Shown: piece after piece, positions 44,238 to 60,873 of the stretch | Numbering within the stretch: position 1 is the first letter of the stretch | Layout of the letters: every line of letters starts with the position of its first letter | Source: Methanomicrobium antiquum | Lineage (GTDB): Archaea > Halobacteriota > Methanomicrobia > Methanomicrobiales > Methanomicrobiaceae | Direction of reading: 5' to 3' | NCBI RefSeq assembly: GCF_029633915.1 | Contig: NZ_CP091092.1 | Coordinates: forward strand, 62,001-126,000 | Length of the DNA: 64,000 nt | Notes under the pieces: generated by a model | Told to the model about the DNA's origin: nothing | The model's input: the letters and a program-made list of their open reading frames with translations, nothing else | Database searches by the model: none | Position numbers and translations under genes: made by a program

Positions 44238-44837
44238 TTACCATCTTCTCATTAATTTTTTAAGTTTTTTGTGATATGTACTCAAATCTAATTCAGGATT
44301 TTCATCAATTTTTATGCTTGCTTCTTTTTTTAGCATATAATATTGTTTAGCTTTGAGAAATTCAACTCCATCCTCCAATATGGGTAAATATTGTTGAATT
44401 TGAGAATATCTTTCAATATATTTTTTCATTTCATTTTGAGCTTTTTCCTCTTCACAATCTGTACATTTAGTTTTCCTAAAATGGTGAATATCTCTGAGGA
44501 AATTTGTAAGTAAGTCAATTCCCTTCTCAGATGTAATTTTTCTCTCTCTAAAATCCCATATTTTATCTAATAATGTGAAAATTAAAATGAATAATCCTAA
44601 AATCACAATAATTTGTCTCAAGGCAATTGCTGTATCGATTTTTATAAATAAGCAGATTATTTCTGTATCAATCATTGCTATTGTTGCAATTAATGCTGAT
44701 AAAGTAATTATTAAAAATGTGAATATATTGTCTAGATTATTGTAATGAATGTATCTTCTAGATAGTATTTCTCTATTAATTTCAGCCTTTTTGCTAATTT
44801 TGTCACATTCAGCAAGGATTTTTTCATTTTCATTCAT
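44238..44837 (-). CDS. Two-TM SLATT-domain protein, likely CBASS effector
   Basis: 199 residues. An N-terminal amphipathic helix precedes two hydrophobic helices (about 32-60 and 72-95), then a long charged C-terminal helical region (ERKITSEKGIDLLTNFLRDI, KKYIERYSQIQQYLPIL). This is the SLATT layout, known as a membrane-pore effector triggered by nucleotide second messengers. The ATG at 44837 is one base after the glycosylase stop, so the two are coupled. It is the last gene of the minus-strand operon of QueC-like, TGT-like, CD-NTase and glycosylase genes. Membrane disruption after phage sensing is inferred from that context. Confidence 0.82.
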   Translation of the reverse strand: MNENEKILAECDKISKKAEINREILSRRYIHYNNLDNIFTFLIITLSALIATIAMIDTEIICLFIKIDTAIALRQIIVILGLFILIFTLLDKIWDFRERKITSEKGIDLLTNFLRDIHHFRKTKCTDCEEEKAQNEMKKYIERYSQIQQYLPILEDGVEFLKAKQYYMLKKEASIKIDENPELDLSTYHKKLKKLMRRW

Positions 44838-44838
44838 A

Positions 44839-45483
44839 TTATGTAACAAACCTTATTTTTTTAAGAATATCCAGATATTTCGGTTCGATTGTTGCATATC
44901 GCCATAATACTACATCAACAACAGGAACACTATCTCCACTCACTTTTGATATTTTTTTACAAAACTCTTGAACATCATCAAATCCTTCGTTTAATGCAAT
45001 TCTTACTAGATGTCTATCCGGTTTTGCTACATCTAGACCAATATTTTTTGCCAGATGAAATACTGTAATCGGTCCAATGAAGTCAAATTCTTTTAATTTA
45101 TTTATTGGATCTTTCACAATTTCATTTTTAAACCAATCAAATCCTCTTTTGAAAATTAATTCAGCGGCAGCAATTATTGAAGCAATCTTTTTTTTATGAT
45201 TGAAAATTTTTAATGCTTCTTCCAAGCATGAAATTTTATTAATAGTGATTTTTTCGGCTGAAATCCAATTATAAAAACAATTTGATATAATTGGGAAATA
45301 TTTAGAAATAACTTTCTCTCTCATGCCTGAGGATAGAATGACCCAGCTGATCTCACGTAAAAAATCACTTTCAGATATTTGTTGGAATATTATATTTTTT
45401 TGCCAAATAATTTCATCATTATATCCTTCTTCAATAACAATTTTTTTTACAAAAAAATATTTTTTTACTAAATTCGAATCCAT
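44839..45483 (-). CDS. HhH-GPD (OGG-like) DNA glycosylase homologue, CBASS-associated
   Basis: 214 residues of a base-excision glycosylase fold. The helix-hairpin-helix is at 133-146 (EFDFIGPITVFHLA). It is followed by DVAKPDRHLVRIAL with the family's catalytic Asp at 156. The Lys that gives OGG1 lyase activity corresponds here to a hydrophobic or Thr residue, so at most a monofunctional glycosylase is expected. An OGG-like gene is a known component of type IV CBASS operons. The ATG overlaps the CD-NTase stop (TAATG). Its part in defence is not evident from sequence. Confidence 0.82.
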   Translation of the reverse strand: MDSNLVKKYFFVKKIVIEEGYNDEIIWQKNIIFQQISESDFLREISWVILSSGMREKVISKYFPIISNCFYNWISAEKITINKISCLEEALKIFNHKKKIASIIAAAELIFKRGFDWFKNEIVKDPINKLKEFDFIGPITVFHLAKNIGLDVAKPDRHLVRIALNEGFDDVQEFCKKISKVSGDSVPVVDVVLWRYATIEPKYLDILKKIRFVT

Positions 45484-46415
45484 TATACATCTCCAATAAT
45501 ATCTTCCCATTCAGCCTTTGATTTTGATGAATCTGCACGAGAGATTTTACTATGAATTCTTTTTAACACATAACTTGACTCATATCTTTTATTGGAATTT
45601 GCTTCTCCCAGATAATCATCTACGTGAATAGACTGATTTGTTTTATCCTTAATTGGCGTGATAATACGTTTCTGAGATTGCTCAAAGAAATATTTTAGCA
45701 TATTTTTTGGAGTATTGGGTTGGTCACGAGGATAATTTTTAAAAATTTCAATTGCAAGGGATTCAATATGATATCCTGATAATTGTTGATTAGGTGGTAA
45801 ATTTGCATTTATTCCTTTGATAAGTTTAATTACAGGAATCACTTTATTGCCACATTTTTGATTAATCTGGGTTAATTTCGAAGCGAATTGATCCGGACGT
45901 GTAACATTTGACCAACATTTTCCATTTCTTTCTGGTATTTTATATCCACTTCTGCTTTGAAGAGCTGGTAGTAATTGTATTTCAGTACCATCTTGAAATT
46001 TAACAGTAACGGCCAACTTTCCTTCTCTGATTTCTTGAACATTAGATAGATGAGAAGATAATTTGCTTTTTATAAGTTGTATTACTTGTTTAGGTGAATA
46101 ATCGGATAATTCAGAATTATTAATTAGTACAAGTATGTCCGCATCACTTAGACCCTCAACATATGTATGTTTACTAACAGATCCTCCAAATTTTAATTTG
46201 ATAGATCCATCAAATTCTGAATTAATTATTGAGAATATTTCATCAAGATGTTCATTAACAATTTGAGAATCACGGTCATTATATTTTTTTAATTTTTCAT
46301 TAATTAATTCATTAATTTGCCTTTCAAAATCATTGTTATCTGTTTGTTCATTTGTTTTCTTGATTCCATTACTGATATTTTTTCCCGGATTATATGAATT
46401 TCCACCGCCACCCAT
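45483..46415 (-). CDS. CD-NTase (cGAS/DncV-like nucleotidyltransferase) of type IV CBASS
   Basis: 310 residues. The nucleotidyltransferase core has FGGSVSKHTYVEGLSDADIL (77-95), i.e. GS, then T, then SDxD with two metal-binding Asp. The third carboxylate position reads TEIQLLPA (144-151), with Gln where many relatives have Asp. A helical C-terminal domain follows. It should make a cyclic or linear oligonucleotide signal on infection. The start at 46415 (GGTGAT four bases before ATG) gives MGGGGNSYNPGK, a Gly-rich N-terminus fitting the reported N-terminal deazaguanine conjugation by QueC-like partners. It overlaps the end of the glycosylase gene and closely follows the TGT-like gene. Confidence 0.88.
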   Translation of the reverse strand: MGGGGNSYNPGKNISNGIKKTNEQTDNNDFERQINELINEKLKKYNDRDSQIVNEHLDEIFSIINSEFDGSIKLKFGGSVSKHTYVEGLSDADILVLINNSELSDYSPKQVIQLIKSKLSSHLSNVQEIREGKLAVTVKFQDGTEIQLLPALQSRSGYKIPERNGKCWSNVTRPDQFASKLTQINQKCGNKVIPVIKLIKGINANLPPNQQLSGYHIESLAIEIFKNYPRDQPNTPKNMLKYFFEQSQKRIITPIKDKTNQSIHVDDYLGEANSNKRYESSYVLKRIHSKISRADSSKSKAEWEDIIGDV

Positions 46416-46420
46416 AATTA

Positions 46421-47464
46421 TCACCTTGTAATTTTAGATTTAAATAATTTACAACTTTCCTCAAAAAATTTAGGATCCATGTTTAATTCATTAAAAGATT
46501 CAAAAGATTGAGTTTTATGCAATCTTCTTAAAACTAATTCTAAATTTTTTAAATAAGCATAATTCTCTTTGCGCGATTCATAAATCAAATTATTATCAGG
46601 ATATTCAATACCCCACTTTAAACGTCCTAAACTGTGATTATATCCTGAATAATTTTGATAATAGAAATATCTGAGCCAAGAAAGTCCATCAAAAATATCA
46701 GCACCTGCCATGTAATATAATGGTGTTGTAACTGGATCCAGACTTCCAAAAATGTGTATTGGTATCTTTAATTCTTTTTTATCTAAGCATTCTCTAATTT
46801 TTGCAATATTACACATTCTTTGAAGTGTTGAAGTTCCAAGTTCTTTTTCAGTAAATCCAAGGATATCAAAATATTGAAACTCATCAGAATATGTTAGTAA
46901 TTTGTCAATTTCAATTATATCATTATTTTCAGATTTGATTAGAAAATTTTTAACAACATTTTTTCCTTTAAATGAATTTTTAGCATTATATATCTGTTTT
47001 AAGAATGTTTTCTCCTCATTTGGAATACTTGGATGATCAAAACTAACAAGAATAACAGGAATTTTTGATTTTATTAATTCAATATTTTTTAGAAATTTTT
47101 CGACAGTATGGGTAAATAATATATCATTCCATTCATTTGGAAGGTTTTTCTGAGTTCCGTTATCTGTACTATCATTTTCAGATAAACATTCATATCCTCC
47201 ACTGTCAATAATCACAAAATCTAAATTTGAAAAATCAATTTCAAGGCCATCAGATGAATGATGATCATAAAATGAATGAAGATCGTATGCACTTATTAAA
47301 AGGCCATCCGAAATATATGATAAAGAATTATTTATTGAATTTTGTAATTCCTCAGGTTTTTTTGAATCAATGGTACCTGCTTGGCTAGAAAATGAAGGAA
47401 CAAGTAATGGAGTTGTTCCAATTGTAAGACCATTCCAATTAATGTCCAAAATTCTTGTTTTCAT
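46421..47464 (-). CDS. TGT-like protein (tRNA-guanine transglycosylase homologue), CBASS-associated
   Basis: 347 residues of the queuine/archaeosine transglycosylase TIM-barrel family. The diagnostic segment is FVIIDSGGYECL (84-95; DSGGF in canonical enzymes). The GSLDPVTTPLYYMAGADIFDG segment at about 230-250 matches the barrel's base-binding side. No zinc-binding Cys cluster or PUA domain is present, so it is a short form rather than a housekeeping archaeosine enzyme. It overlaps the QueC-like gene by 26 bases and ends just before the CD-NTase. In type IV CBASS such a gene is a standard companion. Confidence 0.82.
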   Translation of the reverse strand: MKTRILDINWNGLTIGTTPLLVPSFSSQAGTIDSKKPEELQNSINNSLSYISDGLLISAYDLHSFYDHHSSDGLEIDFSNLDFVIIDSGGYECLSENDSTDNGTQKNLPNEWNDILFTHTVEKFLKNIELIKSKIPVILVSFDHPSIPNEEKTFLKQIYNAKNSFKGKNVVKNFLIKSENNDIIEIDKLLTYSDEFQYFDILGFTEKELGTSTLQRMCNIAKIRECLDKKELKIPIHIFGSLDPVTTPLYYMAGADIFDGLSWLRYFYYQNYSGYNHSLGRLKWGIEYPDNNLIYESRKENYAYLKNLELVLRRLHKTQSFESFNELNMDPKFFEESCKLFKSKITR

Positions 47465-48026
47465 AAAAATTCAACCTATCTAAACATGAAAGACATTTAT
47501 TACAGGGGTTATCTCCCCCAGATTCACAGCTATAAGTCATTTCTAGTGGTATTTTATGAAGATTACAATATTCAATAATCAATTTTTTGTTCCATTCTAG
47601 AAACGGAATGTCTAGAATTACAGTACCATTTGAATAACCATCAATAATTGTCTGGATTTCATTAACAAATTGAATTGAACAATCGTAGTAAGAAGTACCA
47701 CTATGTATTCCCATTGAAATGAGTCCTGTAAAATTTTTAAAAGATAATAATGTGGCAATTATTAAAAAGCAATTCCGACCTTTAATTTCCCCAGATTCAA
47801 AAGCAGTTTCATGGACAAAATTAGCTTTTTTGATTTTTATATTGAAATGAGATCCAATTTGATTGCAACACTTTAATTCATTTTTGGCTGCCGCTTGTCC
47901 ATAGTCAACAAAAAAACCTGTGACGTTAAAACCTTTATTGATGTAATAATGCACGCAGGCCATTGAATCTATACCCCCGCTTAATAGAACAATAACTTGC
48001 TTACTGGAATATTCGTCCGAGTACAT
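47439..48026 (-). CDS. QueC-like ATPase (7-cyano-7-deazaguanine synthase homologue), CBASS-associated
   Basis: 195 residues. The PP-loop VLLSGGIDSMACV (13-25) binds ATP. FFVDYGQ is the typical second strand. A C-terminal zinc site CESGGDNPCNKCLSC uses Cys 167, 175, 178 and 181. QueC turns a carboxylated deazaguanine into preQ0. The QueC-like protein of type IV CBASS is reported to attach the base to the N-terminal Gly of the CD-NTase instead. No other queuosine or archaeosine genes are nearby, which favours the defence role. It is first in the operon, with an AAAGATATAATTATTATA promoter-like stretch just before the start. Confidence 0.87.
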   Translation of the reverse strand: MYSDEYSSKQVIVLLSGGIDSMACVHYYINKGFNVTGFFVDYGQAAAKNELKCCNQIGSHFNIKIKKANFVHETAFESGEIKGRNCFLIIATLLSFKNFTGLISMGIHSGTSYYDCSIQFVNEIQTIIDGYSNGTVILDIPFLEWNKKLIIEYCNLHKIPLEMTYSCESGGDNPCNKCLSCLDRLNFYENKNFGH

Positions 48027-50983: not shown

Positions 50984-51577
50984 ATGGCAATAAAGGACTA
51001 CAAAATTTTTGTAAGCTATGACCATGAAAATGATCAAAAATACCGGGATGAATTTGAAAGAATAATAGCATGTTCAGAAATTTCAACCGTTGATTCAGCT
51101 CCGATAACGGATATATCCGATATAACTGATAAAAAAAATATTGATTCGGATGTTGATAATGGAGCTGATGTTAATGCCGCTGCCGATGCAATCCGACAAA
51201 AAATACGGGATGAAATCTTACAGGATTCAGTCGTTACTGTTGTTTTAGTTGGAAAAGATACCTGGAAGAAGAAGCATATTGACCTTGAAATTGAGGCGAG
51301 CATCAGTCAGACAGAATCAAATCCCCGCTCCGGACTCTTAGGTATTCTCCTGCCGACCCACTCAGATTTGGAGAATAATCAGTATAGCTATGATACCATA
51401 CCTCCAAGACTGCACAAAAATATTCAAAACGGATTTGCAAAGATGTACCCTTTCGATATTAATCTTTTAGTCATCCATAATTCTGTTCATGAGGCATTTG
51501 AAAGAACAAAATCCGTTGTTCCTGATAATTCATATCCTTTATTTACAGAAGATCTCAGTGGGGAGAACTGGGAGTAA
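50984..51577 (+). CDS. TIR-like (MTH538/ThsB-type) domain protein
   Basis: 197 residues. The start KIFVSYDHENDQKYRDEFER is a TIR-like strand-helix. DSVVTVVLVGKDTWKKKHIDLEIEASI gives the next strands with the conserved glutamate. The family (pfam08937-like) includes the Thoeris sensor ThsB, which makes a cyclic ADP-ribose signal. No ThsA-like NADase lies beside it here, so it may be orphaned or act with another effector such as the CBASS membrane protein; that is speculation. The central insertion (about residues 40-68) is polar and repetitive. Confidence 0.78.
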   Translation: MAIKDYKIFVSYDHENDQKYRDEFERIIACSEISTVDSAPITDISDITDKKNIDSDVDNGADVNAAADAIRQKIRDEILQDSVVTVVLVGKDTWKKKHIDLEIEASISQTESNPRSGLLGILLPTHSDLENNQYSYDTIPPRLHKNIQNGFAKMYPFDINLLVIHNSVHEAFERTKSVVPDNSYPLFTEDLSGENWE

Positions 51578-52253: not shown

Positions 52254-52835
52254 ATGTACCTCTTCTTCGATGTCGAAACAAACGGTCTTCCAAGACGCTG
52301 TTATCAGGGGCCGTTAAAAAATCAGGTTGTTCAGCCGAGGGTTGTTCAGCTTGCCTTTTCAAGATATTCAGAAGAAGGAGAAGAGATAAGCTCTTACAGT
52401 CGGATTATTTATCCGGAGGACTTTGAGATTCCTCTGAATGTTGTAAGGGTTCACGGAATAACAAAGAAAAGGGCACTTATGGAAGGACTTCCCGGTAATG
52501 AGGTTTTCGCTTCTTTTAACGCTGAAGCAAAAAAGTCAGAGTGCCTTGTTGCCCATAACTTCTCTTTTGACTATCCGGTTGTGTGTGCAGAACTCTTTCG
52601 TTATGGTCTGAAGAACGAAATTTCAGAAAAGACAGGGATTTGCACAATGAGGCCGAAACCGGTTAAGGACTTTTGTGCACTTCCAAGGAAGAACGGCGGG
52701 TATAAGGTGCCAAGGCTTTCCGAACTGCACGAAATTCTGTTCGGGGAGTCATTTGACGGTGCACACGATGCCGGTGCTGATGTGAGAGCATGTGCACGCT
52801 GTTTTTTTGAATTGAAAGAGAGAGGGGTTTTGTAG
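52254..52835 (+). CDS. DEDDh 3'-5' exonuclease (DnaQ/epsilon-like)
   Basis: 193 residues. The exonuclease motifs are YLFFDVETNGLP (ExoI; D and E), LVAHNFSFDYP (ExoII) and HDAGADVRAC (ExoIII; H and D), in DEDDh order. It should remove nucleotides from DNA or RNA 3' ends as proofreading or maturation enzyme; no polymerase fusion is present. Its last 180 bases (52663-52842) are repeated at 59487-59666, apparently marking the left edge of a 6.6 kb inserted segment. Confidence 0.9.
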   Translation: MYLFFDVETNGLPRRCYQGPLKNQVVQPRVVQLAFSRYSEEGEEISSYSRIIYPEDFEIPLNVVRVHGITKKRALMEGLPGNEVFASFNAEAKKSECLVAHNFSFDYPVVCAELFRYGLKNEISEKTGICTMRPKPVKDFCALPRKNGGYKVPRLSELHEILFGESFDGAHDAGADVRACARCFFELKERGVL

Positions 52836-52842
52836 TTTTTTG
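52663..52842 (+). repeat. 180 bp direct repeat, left copy (3' end of exonuclease gene)
   Basis: Matches 59487-59666 at a constant offset of 6824 bases. By eye there are about ten mismatches, all in the first half and mostly at third codon positions. The final 91 bases (52752-52842) are identical to 59576-59666. The repeats flank the secreted-protein island. Confidence 0.93.
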
Positions 52843-59486: not shown

Positions 59487-59659
59487 TTAAGGACTTTTGT
59501 GCACTTCCAAGGAAGAACGGGGGGTATAAGGTACCAAGGCTTTCCGAACTCCATGAGATACTCTTTGGTGAGTCCTTTGACGGTGCACACGATGCCGGTG
59601 CTGATGTGAGAGCATGTGCACGCTGTTTTTTTGAATTGAAAGAGAGAGGGGTTTTGTAG
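59487..59659 (+). pseudogene. Exonuclease 3'-end fragment (right copy of direct repeat)
   Basis: About 57 codons identical in protein sequence to the end of the exonuclease at 52254-52835 (KDFCALPRKNGGYKVP to ELKERGVL). The two DNA copies differ mainly at synonymous sites. It has no ExoI or ExoII motif and cannot be active. It looks like a displaced gene end at the right boundary of the island. Confidence 0.85.
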
Positions 59660-59716
59660 TTTTTTGGTCAAAAATTTTTGGAACTTATAAGGTCTTTATT
59701 ATATGAATTATATGAA

Positions 59717-60613
59717 TTATATGAACTCAAATGCATTAAAATTAATTTTTGGCTCAGTATTAATTTTATAAGATTCCTGTGCAGGAATGCCTGAATTATC
59801 CCTGTTAGTTTTATTGTGCATAAAAGAGTCAGCTGAAGTCTCTTTTGGAGTTTCAATCTCTTCAGAAAGACCTCTTGTTCTCTTCCTGAATTCAACATGA
59901 TGGCCTGAAGATAAAAAATTTTTAATTAAAAAAAATCCAATCCCCTTAAAAGCGAATGTCTGAGGCTCTGTTCCTGAATAAATAATTGAACCGTTATATA
60001 TCTCTGAAAAATCGCCCAGACTGGATACACCTGCACTTTTCAGAAAAAGATTTATTTCATTATCTGTCGCAGTCTTCTTTTTGTTTATGAAACTAATTGA
60101 GAAATCCTGAGCTTTTAATGTATCATAAATAACAAAGCATTTGCCGGATTTATCACATAATCGTTTAATACTTTGGTTATCTGTCACTAATCCTTCGTTT
60201 AAATAATCCATTAATTCTGTCTGATATATACTGTCAGATGTTACTTTGTTAAAAGAAATTTTAACGGAATCAAATCCTGAATATTTGGCAGTAATATTGA
60301 TTCCTAAAACGCTTTTAAGAACTTTACTGAGTAGTTCATTTGTAGACAATTCGATTGAAGCCTTATCTTTGTCCTCATAAGAGTCAGCAATGTTCCATTT
60401 AGGTTCATCTTTTCGAATAAAGGGTAGTTCTTTCTTTGGATTCTTTACAAATGAAGTAACAGGGCCCAGAATTTCAGGATGATCATTTTTATTTTTTGCT
60501 TTTGTTACGATTAGTGGAATGTAATCTCGATCAGGAAGAATGAAAAAATAACCCGCCTGAGCAAGCTTTTCAATCATGGCTGATCCTTTTATTCCAACAG
60601 GATTTGTTGACAT
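59717..60613 (-). CDS. Gasdermin-like pore-forming protein
   Basis: 298 residues without a signal peptide. The pattern follows prokaryotic gasdermins: an N-terminal EKLAQAGYFFILPDRDYIPL, a central KVLKSVLGINITAKYSGFDS, FNKVTSDSIYQTELMDYLNEG, then CFVIYDTLKAQDFSISF and the final strand TEPQTFAFKGIGFFLI (219-230). A polar tail of about 65 residues with RKRTRGLSEE could be the autoinhibitory part cleaved by a protease. No protease gene is adjacent and no N-terminal Cys for palmitoylation is present. If correct, it would form membrane pores on activation. The ATG at 60613 has GGGGGG about 10 bases upstream. Confidence 0.65.
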   Translation of the reverse strand: MSTNPVGIKGSAMIEKLAQAGYFFILPDRDYIPLIVTKAKNKNDHPEILGPVTSFVKNPKKELPFIRKDEPKWNIADSYEDKDKASIELSTNELLSKVLKSVLGINITAKYSGFDSVKISFNKVTSDSIYQTELMDYLNEGLVTDNQSIKRLCDKSGKCFVIYDTLKAQDFSISFINKKKTATDNEINLFLKSAGVSSLGDFSEIYNGSIIYSGTEPQTFAFKGIGFFLIKNFLSSGHHVEFRKRTRGLSEEIETPKETSADSFMHNKTNRDNSGIPAQESYKINTEPKINFNAFEFI

Positions 60614-60873
60614 ATTTTTATTGCCCCCCACATATTTATTGAATCATTCATCACAAATACGATAAATGTTACTAAGCGGGTATAAAAAAAACACTTCAAA
60701 ACCAAATCCCCCGGTATGAACTATTTTTTTCACTTGATCTGTTACATAAAGATGAAAGATAAGCCGCGTAATGAGATTTAATTTGCACAATCCTCTTTAA
60801 ATCACGATTAAAAATTGCGAAAAAGAGTGAAGAATGATCTGTTTTTATCTCCAGAAAAAATCCATATATTATA

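Follow-up and report, generated by a model that had tools for sequence, protein, structure and literature searches.

The window (the whole 64,000-nucleotide stretch analysed) lies in a genome of one contig (G000; 2,438,126 bases, 99.7% complete), for which the top small-subunit rRNA family at one rRNA locus is archaeal (1561.9 bits), in agreement with the archaeal host assumed in the first-pass annotation. Near the end of the window, the minus strand from 60613 to 59717 carries a frame of 298 codons plus a stop, and the plus-strand frame there is rich in stop codons. The ATG start at 60613 is backed by the N-terminus of a relative encoded in a genome from another genus of the same family (G010); a longer alternative form of the frame begins at GTG 60631. 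The following features are used below:

59717..60613, minus strand: divergent gasdermin gene, 298 aa, with profile, solved-gasdermin, profile-profile and fold matches
60624..60629, minus strand: GGGGGG, resembling a ribosome-binding site, 10 nt ahead of the ATG, whose choice as start it supports; the G010 relative likewise has GGGGGG before its start
59882..60613, minus strand: predicted pore-forming core, residues 1-244, sharing 67% identity with the G010 counterpart across residues 1-236
60572..60601, minus strand: N-terminal block PVGIKGSAMI, residues 5-14, invariant in the pair and replacing the bacterial N-terminal cysteine segment
60137..60157, minus strand: C153 and C159 (residues 153-159), kept in the pair and not found at these places in eight other gasdermins
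59864..59881, minus strand: core/tail border R-[TS]-[RK]-G-[LI]-S, residues 245-250, conserved in the pair, a candidate cut site
59720..59881, minus strand: tail, residues 245-298, mostly modelled at pLDDT <50, with a variable linker
59720..59749, minus strand: hydrophobic C-terminal end KINFNAFEFI, residues 289-298, weakly conserved, a possible inhibitory anchor

The gene had been proposed to encode a gasdermin-like protein, and this proposal is borne out by sequence profiles, a match to a solved gasdermin, profile-profile comparison and the predicted fold. The PADLOC bGSDM profile matches residues 13-231 (E 1.5e-22), phmmer matched the solved Vitiosangium gasdermin (8sl0, 7n51) at about 1e-7, and hhalign of a profile of the window protein and its G010 relative against three other gasdermins gave a probability of 97 (E 3.3e-11). 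With the NCBIfam model NF051890 (prok_gasdermin), the window protein reached E 3.1e-23 and 82.6 bits, thus missing the curated cut-off of 100 bits; the G010 relative scored 89.4 bits, and the eight other gasdermins scanned all scored above 100. A Pfam search with the window protein gave no match. AlphaFold produced a poor model from the single sequence (pLDDT 37) and a moderate one with five bacterial gasdermins aligned (pTM 0.58, mean pLDDT 54.7). The best PDB matches of the alignment-based model in Foldseek were bacterial gasdermins (7n51 at E 3.4e-12), and VIA-align to 7n51 gave Z 14.8 and rmsd 4.8 with 208 aligned, so that the gasdermin sheet is present in this usable model. VIA-align also returned cholesterol-dependent cytolysins at Z about 6, the pore-forming folds of these proteins and of gasdermins being known to resemble each other distantly. 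The fold result agrees with the sequence evidence but is not independent of it, because bacterial gasdermins formed the alignment of the model. A chance frame or a wrong family assignment is ruled out by the gasdermin profile, the Vitiosangium and structural matches and the existence, in another genus, of a full-length relative aligned across 299 columns with a single gap and 59% identity. The window protein is a divergent gasdermin that stands outside the canonical gasdermin-protease systems.

The distribution of this protein was followed in a phylum draw of 392 genomes and an order set of 232 genomes. The bGSDM model matched four genomes of the phylum draw, namely G000, G010, G001 (same genus as the window genome) and G359 (same order), all belonging to one order and each with one gasdermin place, and their gasdermins fall on separate branches apart from the pairing of G000 with G010. 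This pair forms a long, fully supported branch with 12-21% identity to eight other gasdermins, and its type was found in G000 and G010 only (2/232 order genomes; 2/392 in the phylum draw, with none in the rest). The G001 gasdermin is only 15% identical to that of the window and is therefore a different gene despite the shared genus. Pattern searches, which reach close relatives only, found the pair type in no plasmid or phage; 118 pattern stretches in viral contigs gave no confirmed case, nor did 60 in genome contigs, for which near records may have been omitted. A match in G003 (L003, G003:C199:2392-2775), 23% identical to gasdermin residues 105-233 (E 8.6e-5) and with two internal TAG codons, disappeared when the pair alignment was used for the search; it is a fragment or a chance match and was left out of the gasdermin count.

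Comparing 40 ORFs around the window gene with 24 around its G010 counterpart gave six matching pairs. Besides the gasdermin itself (59%), these are a GPR1/FUN34/YaaH transporter (66%) and four genes that we take to encode a DUF2115-like protein (58%), a hydrolase (82%), a DUF711-like protein (87%) and an ACT-domain protein (79%). The relative strands of the five shared neighbour genes are consistent and their order is rearranged. This conserved neighbourhood, with pairs at 58-87% and consistent relative strands, fits an old descent in place. In both genomes the gasdermin gene stands alone. The same five neighbour genes occur together without the gasdermin in G004, a genome from the genus of the window, and in all, six genomes of the family other than the pair showed no gasdermin remnant around YaaH or a nearby gene. 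The absence from G004 reflects either a loss there or a gain in G000 and G010.

The first-pass annotation had placed the gene in a defence-rich region near a flanked island, and the elements of this description are present. PADLOC identified a CBASS-like set at 44238-48026 (matches to a 2TM effector, OGG, a cyclase, TGT and QueC), presumably of type IV, a gene for a ThsB-like TIR protein lies at 50984-51577, and a 180-nt direct repeat has its two copies, 94% identical, at 52663-52842 and 59487-59666, the second copy reaching to within 51 nt of the gasdermin gene. What is repeated is the 3' end of the gene for an RNase T-like exonuclease (52254-52835); it reappears on the far side of a 6.6-kb insert, which encodes an HTH membrane protein and secreted proteins that are paralogous. 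An arrival of the gasdermin with this island is unsupported, the gene being outside the repeats and having five neighbours in common with G010. Besides, the gasdermin is outside any defence operon, the CBASS-like set being about 12 kb off.

No caspase-like, trypsin-like or subtilase gene was found among the scanned neighbours of the window gasdermin, as had been noted at first sight, and the search was extended to five protease families in five genomes (G000, G010, G001, G359 and G003). At E 0.001, the complete genomes G000 and G010 gave no match to CHAT, C14, Trypsin_2 or Trypsin. CHAT was matched only in G359, beside its gasdermin, which served as a positive control; C14 was matched in none of the five genomes, Trypsin_2 in G359 and G001, Trypsin in G359, and S8 in four genomes, G000 and G010 among them. 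In G000 the single S8 match falls in a protein of 1267 aa and covers roughly the latter half of the S8 domain. This protein carries PKD domains and has a hydrophobic N-terminus as well as a membrane segment at its C-terminal end, so that it is probably not cytoplasmic. When the CHAT domains of three gasdermin-linked proteins were combined into one model, G359 was matched at 2e-91 and a 3446-aa frame in G010 gave a weak match (E 0.1), while even at E 10 neither G000 nor G001 gave any.

A dedicated protease could nevertheless belong to an unrecognised family or be unlinked. Two peptidase genes lie beyond the window end but within 15 kb of the gasdermin, one for an M3 oligopeptidase whose N-terminus is lipoprotein-like (65101-67194 in window numbering, 4.5 kb from the gasdermin) and one for an Rce1-like membrane protease (73139-74041, 12.5 kb from it). 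Gasdermins pair with several unrelated types of protease, in our sample too (CHAT, S8), so that either of the two peptidases or another family might be considered. On the other hand, both peptidases are absent from the gene pairs common to the G000 and G010 neighbourhoods. The lipoprotein-like N-terminus makes the M3 protein probably extracellular, which counts against it as a partner, and an Rce1-like gene also stands near the YaaH gene in G011, a genome without this gasdermin type. Considering these points, we regard a dedicated protease as improbable.

The expectation of the first-pass annotation that prokaryotic gasdermins normally adjoin a protease describes a common situation, but not a universal one. 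In a small and biased comparison sample of ten gasdermins (six bacterial, four archaeal), four adjoin a protease: TPR-CHAT in G359, CHAT at L047, LRR-CHAT at L049 and a subtilase at L050. No protease was found beside the gasdermins of G000, G010 or G001 (about 9 kb each side in G001, with part of the ORFs scanned), of Gloeothece (5 kb each side), of L048 (10 and 3 kb) or of L051 (10 and 2 kb, where the stretch ends). When these neighbourhoods were searched with the three-CHAT-domain model, one caspase query and one subtilase query, the only matches were the proteins from which the queries had been derived. Orphan-looking gasdermins thus occur also in G001, Gloeothece, Tolypothrix and possibly an acidobacterium, and the orphan state is therefore not confined to the G000/G010 pair.

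Individual loci of this sample illustrate the range of contexts. In G359 (L010 6528-10258), the gasdermin gene is convergent with that of the TPR-CHAT protease about 14 nt away, the canonical arrangement in an archaeon. The separate gasdermin of G001 (L009 9547-10386) has six cysteines and lies near an ArdC-like gene, and its six scanned neighbours are without a protease family. The bacterial gasdermin of Tolypothrix (L048 9989-10822) lies between metabolic genes, with no protease in the available stretch.

Bacterial gasdermins with a caspase-like, trypsin-like or subtilase partner, represented by the structures 7n50, 7n51, 7n52, 8sl0 and 9a84, served as the reference for comparison. The window protein resembles them in its sequence profile, its predicted fold, the conserved P and PL positions near the N-terminus and a C-terminal tail past the core, but it is about 20% identical to them, lacks an N-terminal cysteine and a partner protease, and has 75 residues after the FAFK anchor. 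This length compares with 41-59 residues in 7/8 other gasdermins and 76 in Gloeothece. With the G359 gasdermin, which is also archaeal and from the same order, it shares the profile and the lack of the N-terminal cysteine, whereas identity is 19% and the G359 protein has a CHAT neighbour and a shorter tail. An N-terminal palmitoylation cysteine is a common, although not universal, feature of canonical bacterial gasdermin systems. Among the gasdermins compared, all six from bacteria and none of the four from archaea have a cysteine within the first four residues; the first cysteine of the window protein is C153, and it thus has no palmitoylation cysteine at the N-terminus.

Constraint differs along the protein. 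Over core residues 1-236, the comparison of G000 with G010 gave dN 0.22 and dS about 2.3, the latter near saturation, while identity falls to 23% over residues 240-283 and is 47% over the last 15 residues. All three phenylalanines and the terminal isoleucine are kept in the final ten residues of the pair, and conservation over the last 12 columns gave a permutation p of 0.03, a weak signal from two sequences. The linker has therefore diverged between the two proteins while the border motif and the extreme C-terminus were kept, and most of residues 246-298 are modelled at pLDDT <50. An alternative reading is that the gasdermin fold has been kept for another, non-lethal job, or that a defence gene is losing its partner and function. 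The long branch, the missing palmitoylation cysteine and protease, the score below the NCBIfam cut-off and the patchy distribution would all suit such a reading, yet the intact frame in both genera and the strongly constrained core argue against decay, and there is no sign of another function; we hold it to be a poor prospect.

The tail had been proposed as a removable inhibitory segment, which is plausible, with indirect support from the low model confidence over most of the tail, the divergent linker and the retained extreme C-terminus. The RKRTRG stretch on which this proposal drew is indeed at residues 243-248, but only R245, R/K247 and G248 of it are common to the G010 relative. Since tails of a dozen to around 100 residues are reported for bacterial gasdermins in the accessible text of PMC12547243, the length of the tail alone is not abnormal. 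As far as the accessible parts of the respective papers go, tail phenylalanines of the Bradyrhizobium gasdermin pack on the core and one of them contacts the palmitate (PMC10989679), and cleavage of bacterial gasdermins is reported to follow a Leu or Arg some 20 residues before the C-terminus and, in one case, to require a neighbouring Gly (PMC9612521). A hypothetical cut at 247/248 would release 51 residues, compared with about 20 in bacterial gasdermins.

Activation could also proceed without cleavage, by displacement of the tail, a redox change at C153/C159 or a change in dimers, as reported for atypical gasdermins in ancient eukaryotes. Trichoplax GSDM, which is among the structural matches of the window model, and fungal RCD-1 share the gasdermin fold and are activated without a dedicated protease, the former as a disulfide-held dimer and the latter by pairing, according to the accessible text of PMC12547243 and PMC13305819. 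The lack of CHAT, C14, Trypsin_2 and Trypsin matches in the genome at E 0.001 and the conservation of C153 and C159 in this pair only are consistent with such a switch. The two cysteines, however, lie on either side of a predicted hairpin, and the protein has retained a long tail, whereas the Trichoplax dimer has no C-terminal inhibitory part in the accessible text of PMC12547243. That text also describes RCD-1 as working as a protein pair, and with one gasdermin place per genome a pairing of two gasdermins is unlikely here. We consider activation without cleavage possible, although on balance unlikely.

We therefore favour, with a probability of roughly 45%, an autoinhibited pore-former that is freed when a non-dedicated protease cuts its tail, over activation without cleavage, an unseen dedicated protease, and another or decaying role. 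In this proposed scheme, the core would be kept inactive by the C-terminal tail, whose hydrophobic end F-x-x-F-x-F-I may pack on the core like the short tail peptide of bacterial gasdermins. Upon infection or damage, a protease other than a dedicated partner would cut the exposed tail, with R-x-[RK]-G at residues 245-248 as a possible site; either a cellular house-keeping protease or a viral one could do this. Once released, the core would form membrane pores, and the infected cell would die or stop. Several points speak against this scheme: the tail pattern comes from two sequences with a weak C-terminal signal, the proposed cut would release 51 residues and not about 20, G010 has its weak CHAT match and an S8 match, and the gene is outside a defence operon. 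A bolder version, which we rate as rather unlikely, is a one-gene gasdermin defence that acts as its own sensor and executioner without a host protease; in it, a viral protease would cut the bait tail, or tail displacement or a C153/C159 redox switch would open the protein.

Reviews conflict on archaeal gasdermins. In their accessible parts, one states that archaeal genomes have no gasdermins (PMC11249213) and others that gasdermins are present in archaea (PMC9079055, PMC10989679), one of the latter adding that no functional study exists. In our phylum draw, 4/392 genomes carry one; among these four archaeal genomes, one has a CHAT-partnered gasdermin and two hold the conserved orphan pair. 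Our literature search found no publication on the function of gasdermins in archaea or on prokaryotic gasdermins that lack a protease, nor a description in print of a conserved archaeal orphan gasdermin subfamily without the usual partner families genome-wide. Overall, the G000/G010 pair makes it testable whether a prokaryotic gasdermin may work without a dedicated protease, and whether a prokaryotic gasdermin can open archaeal membranes.
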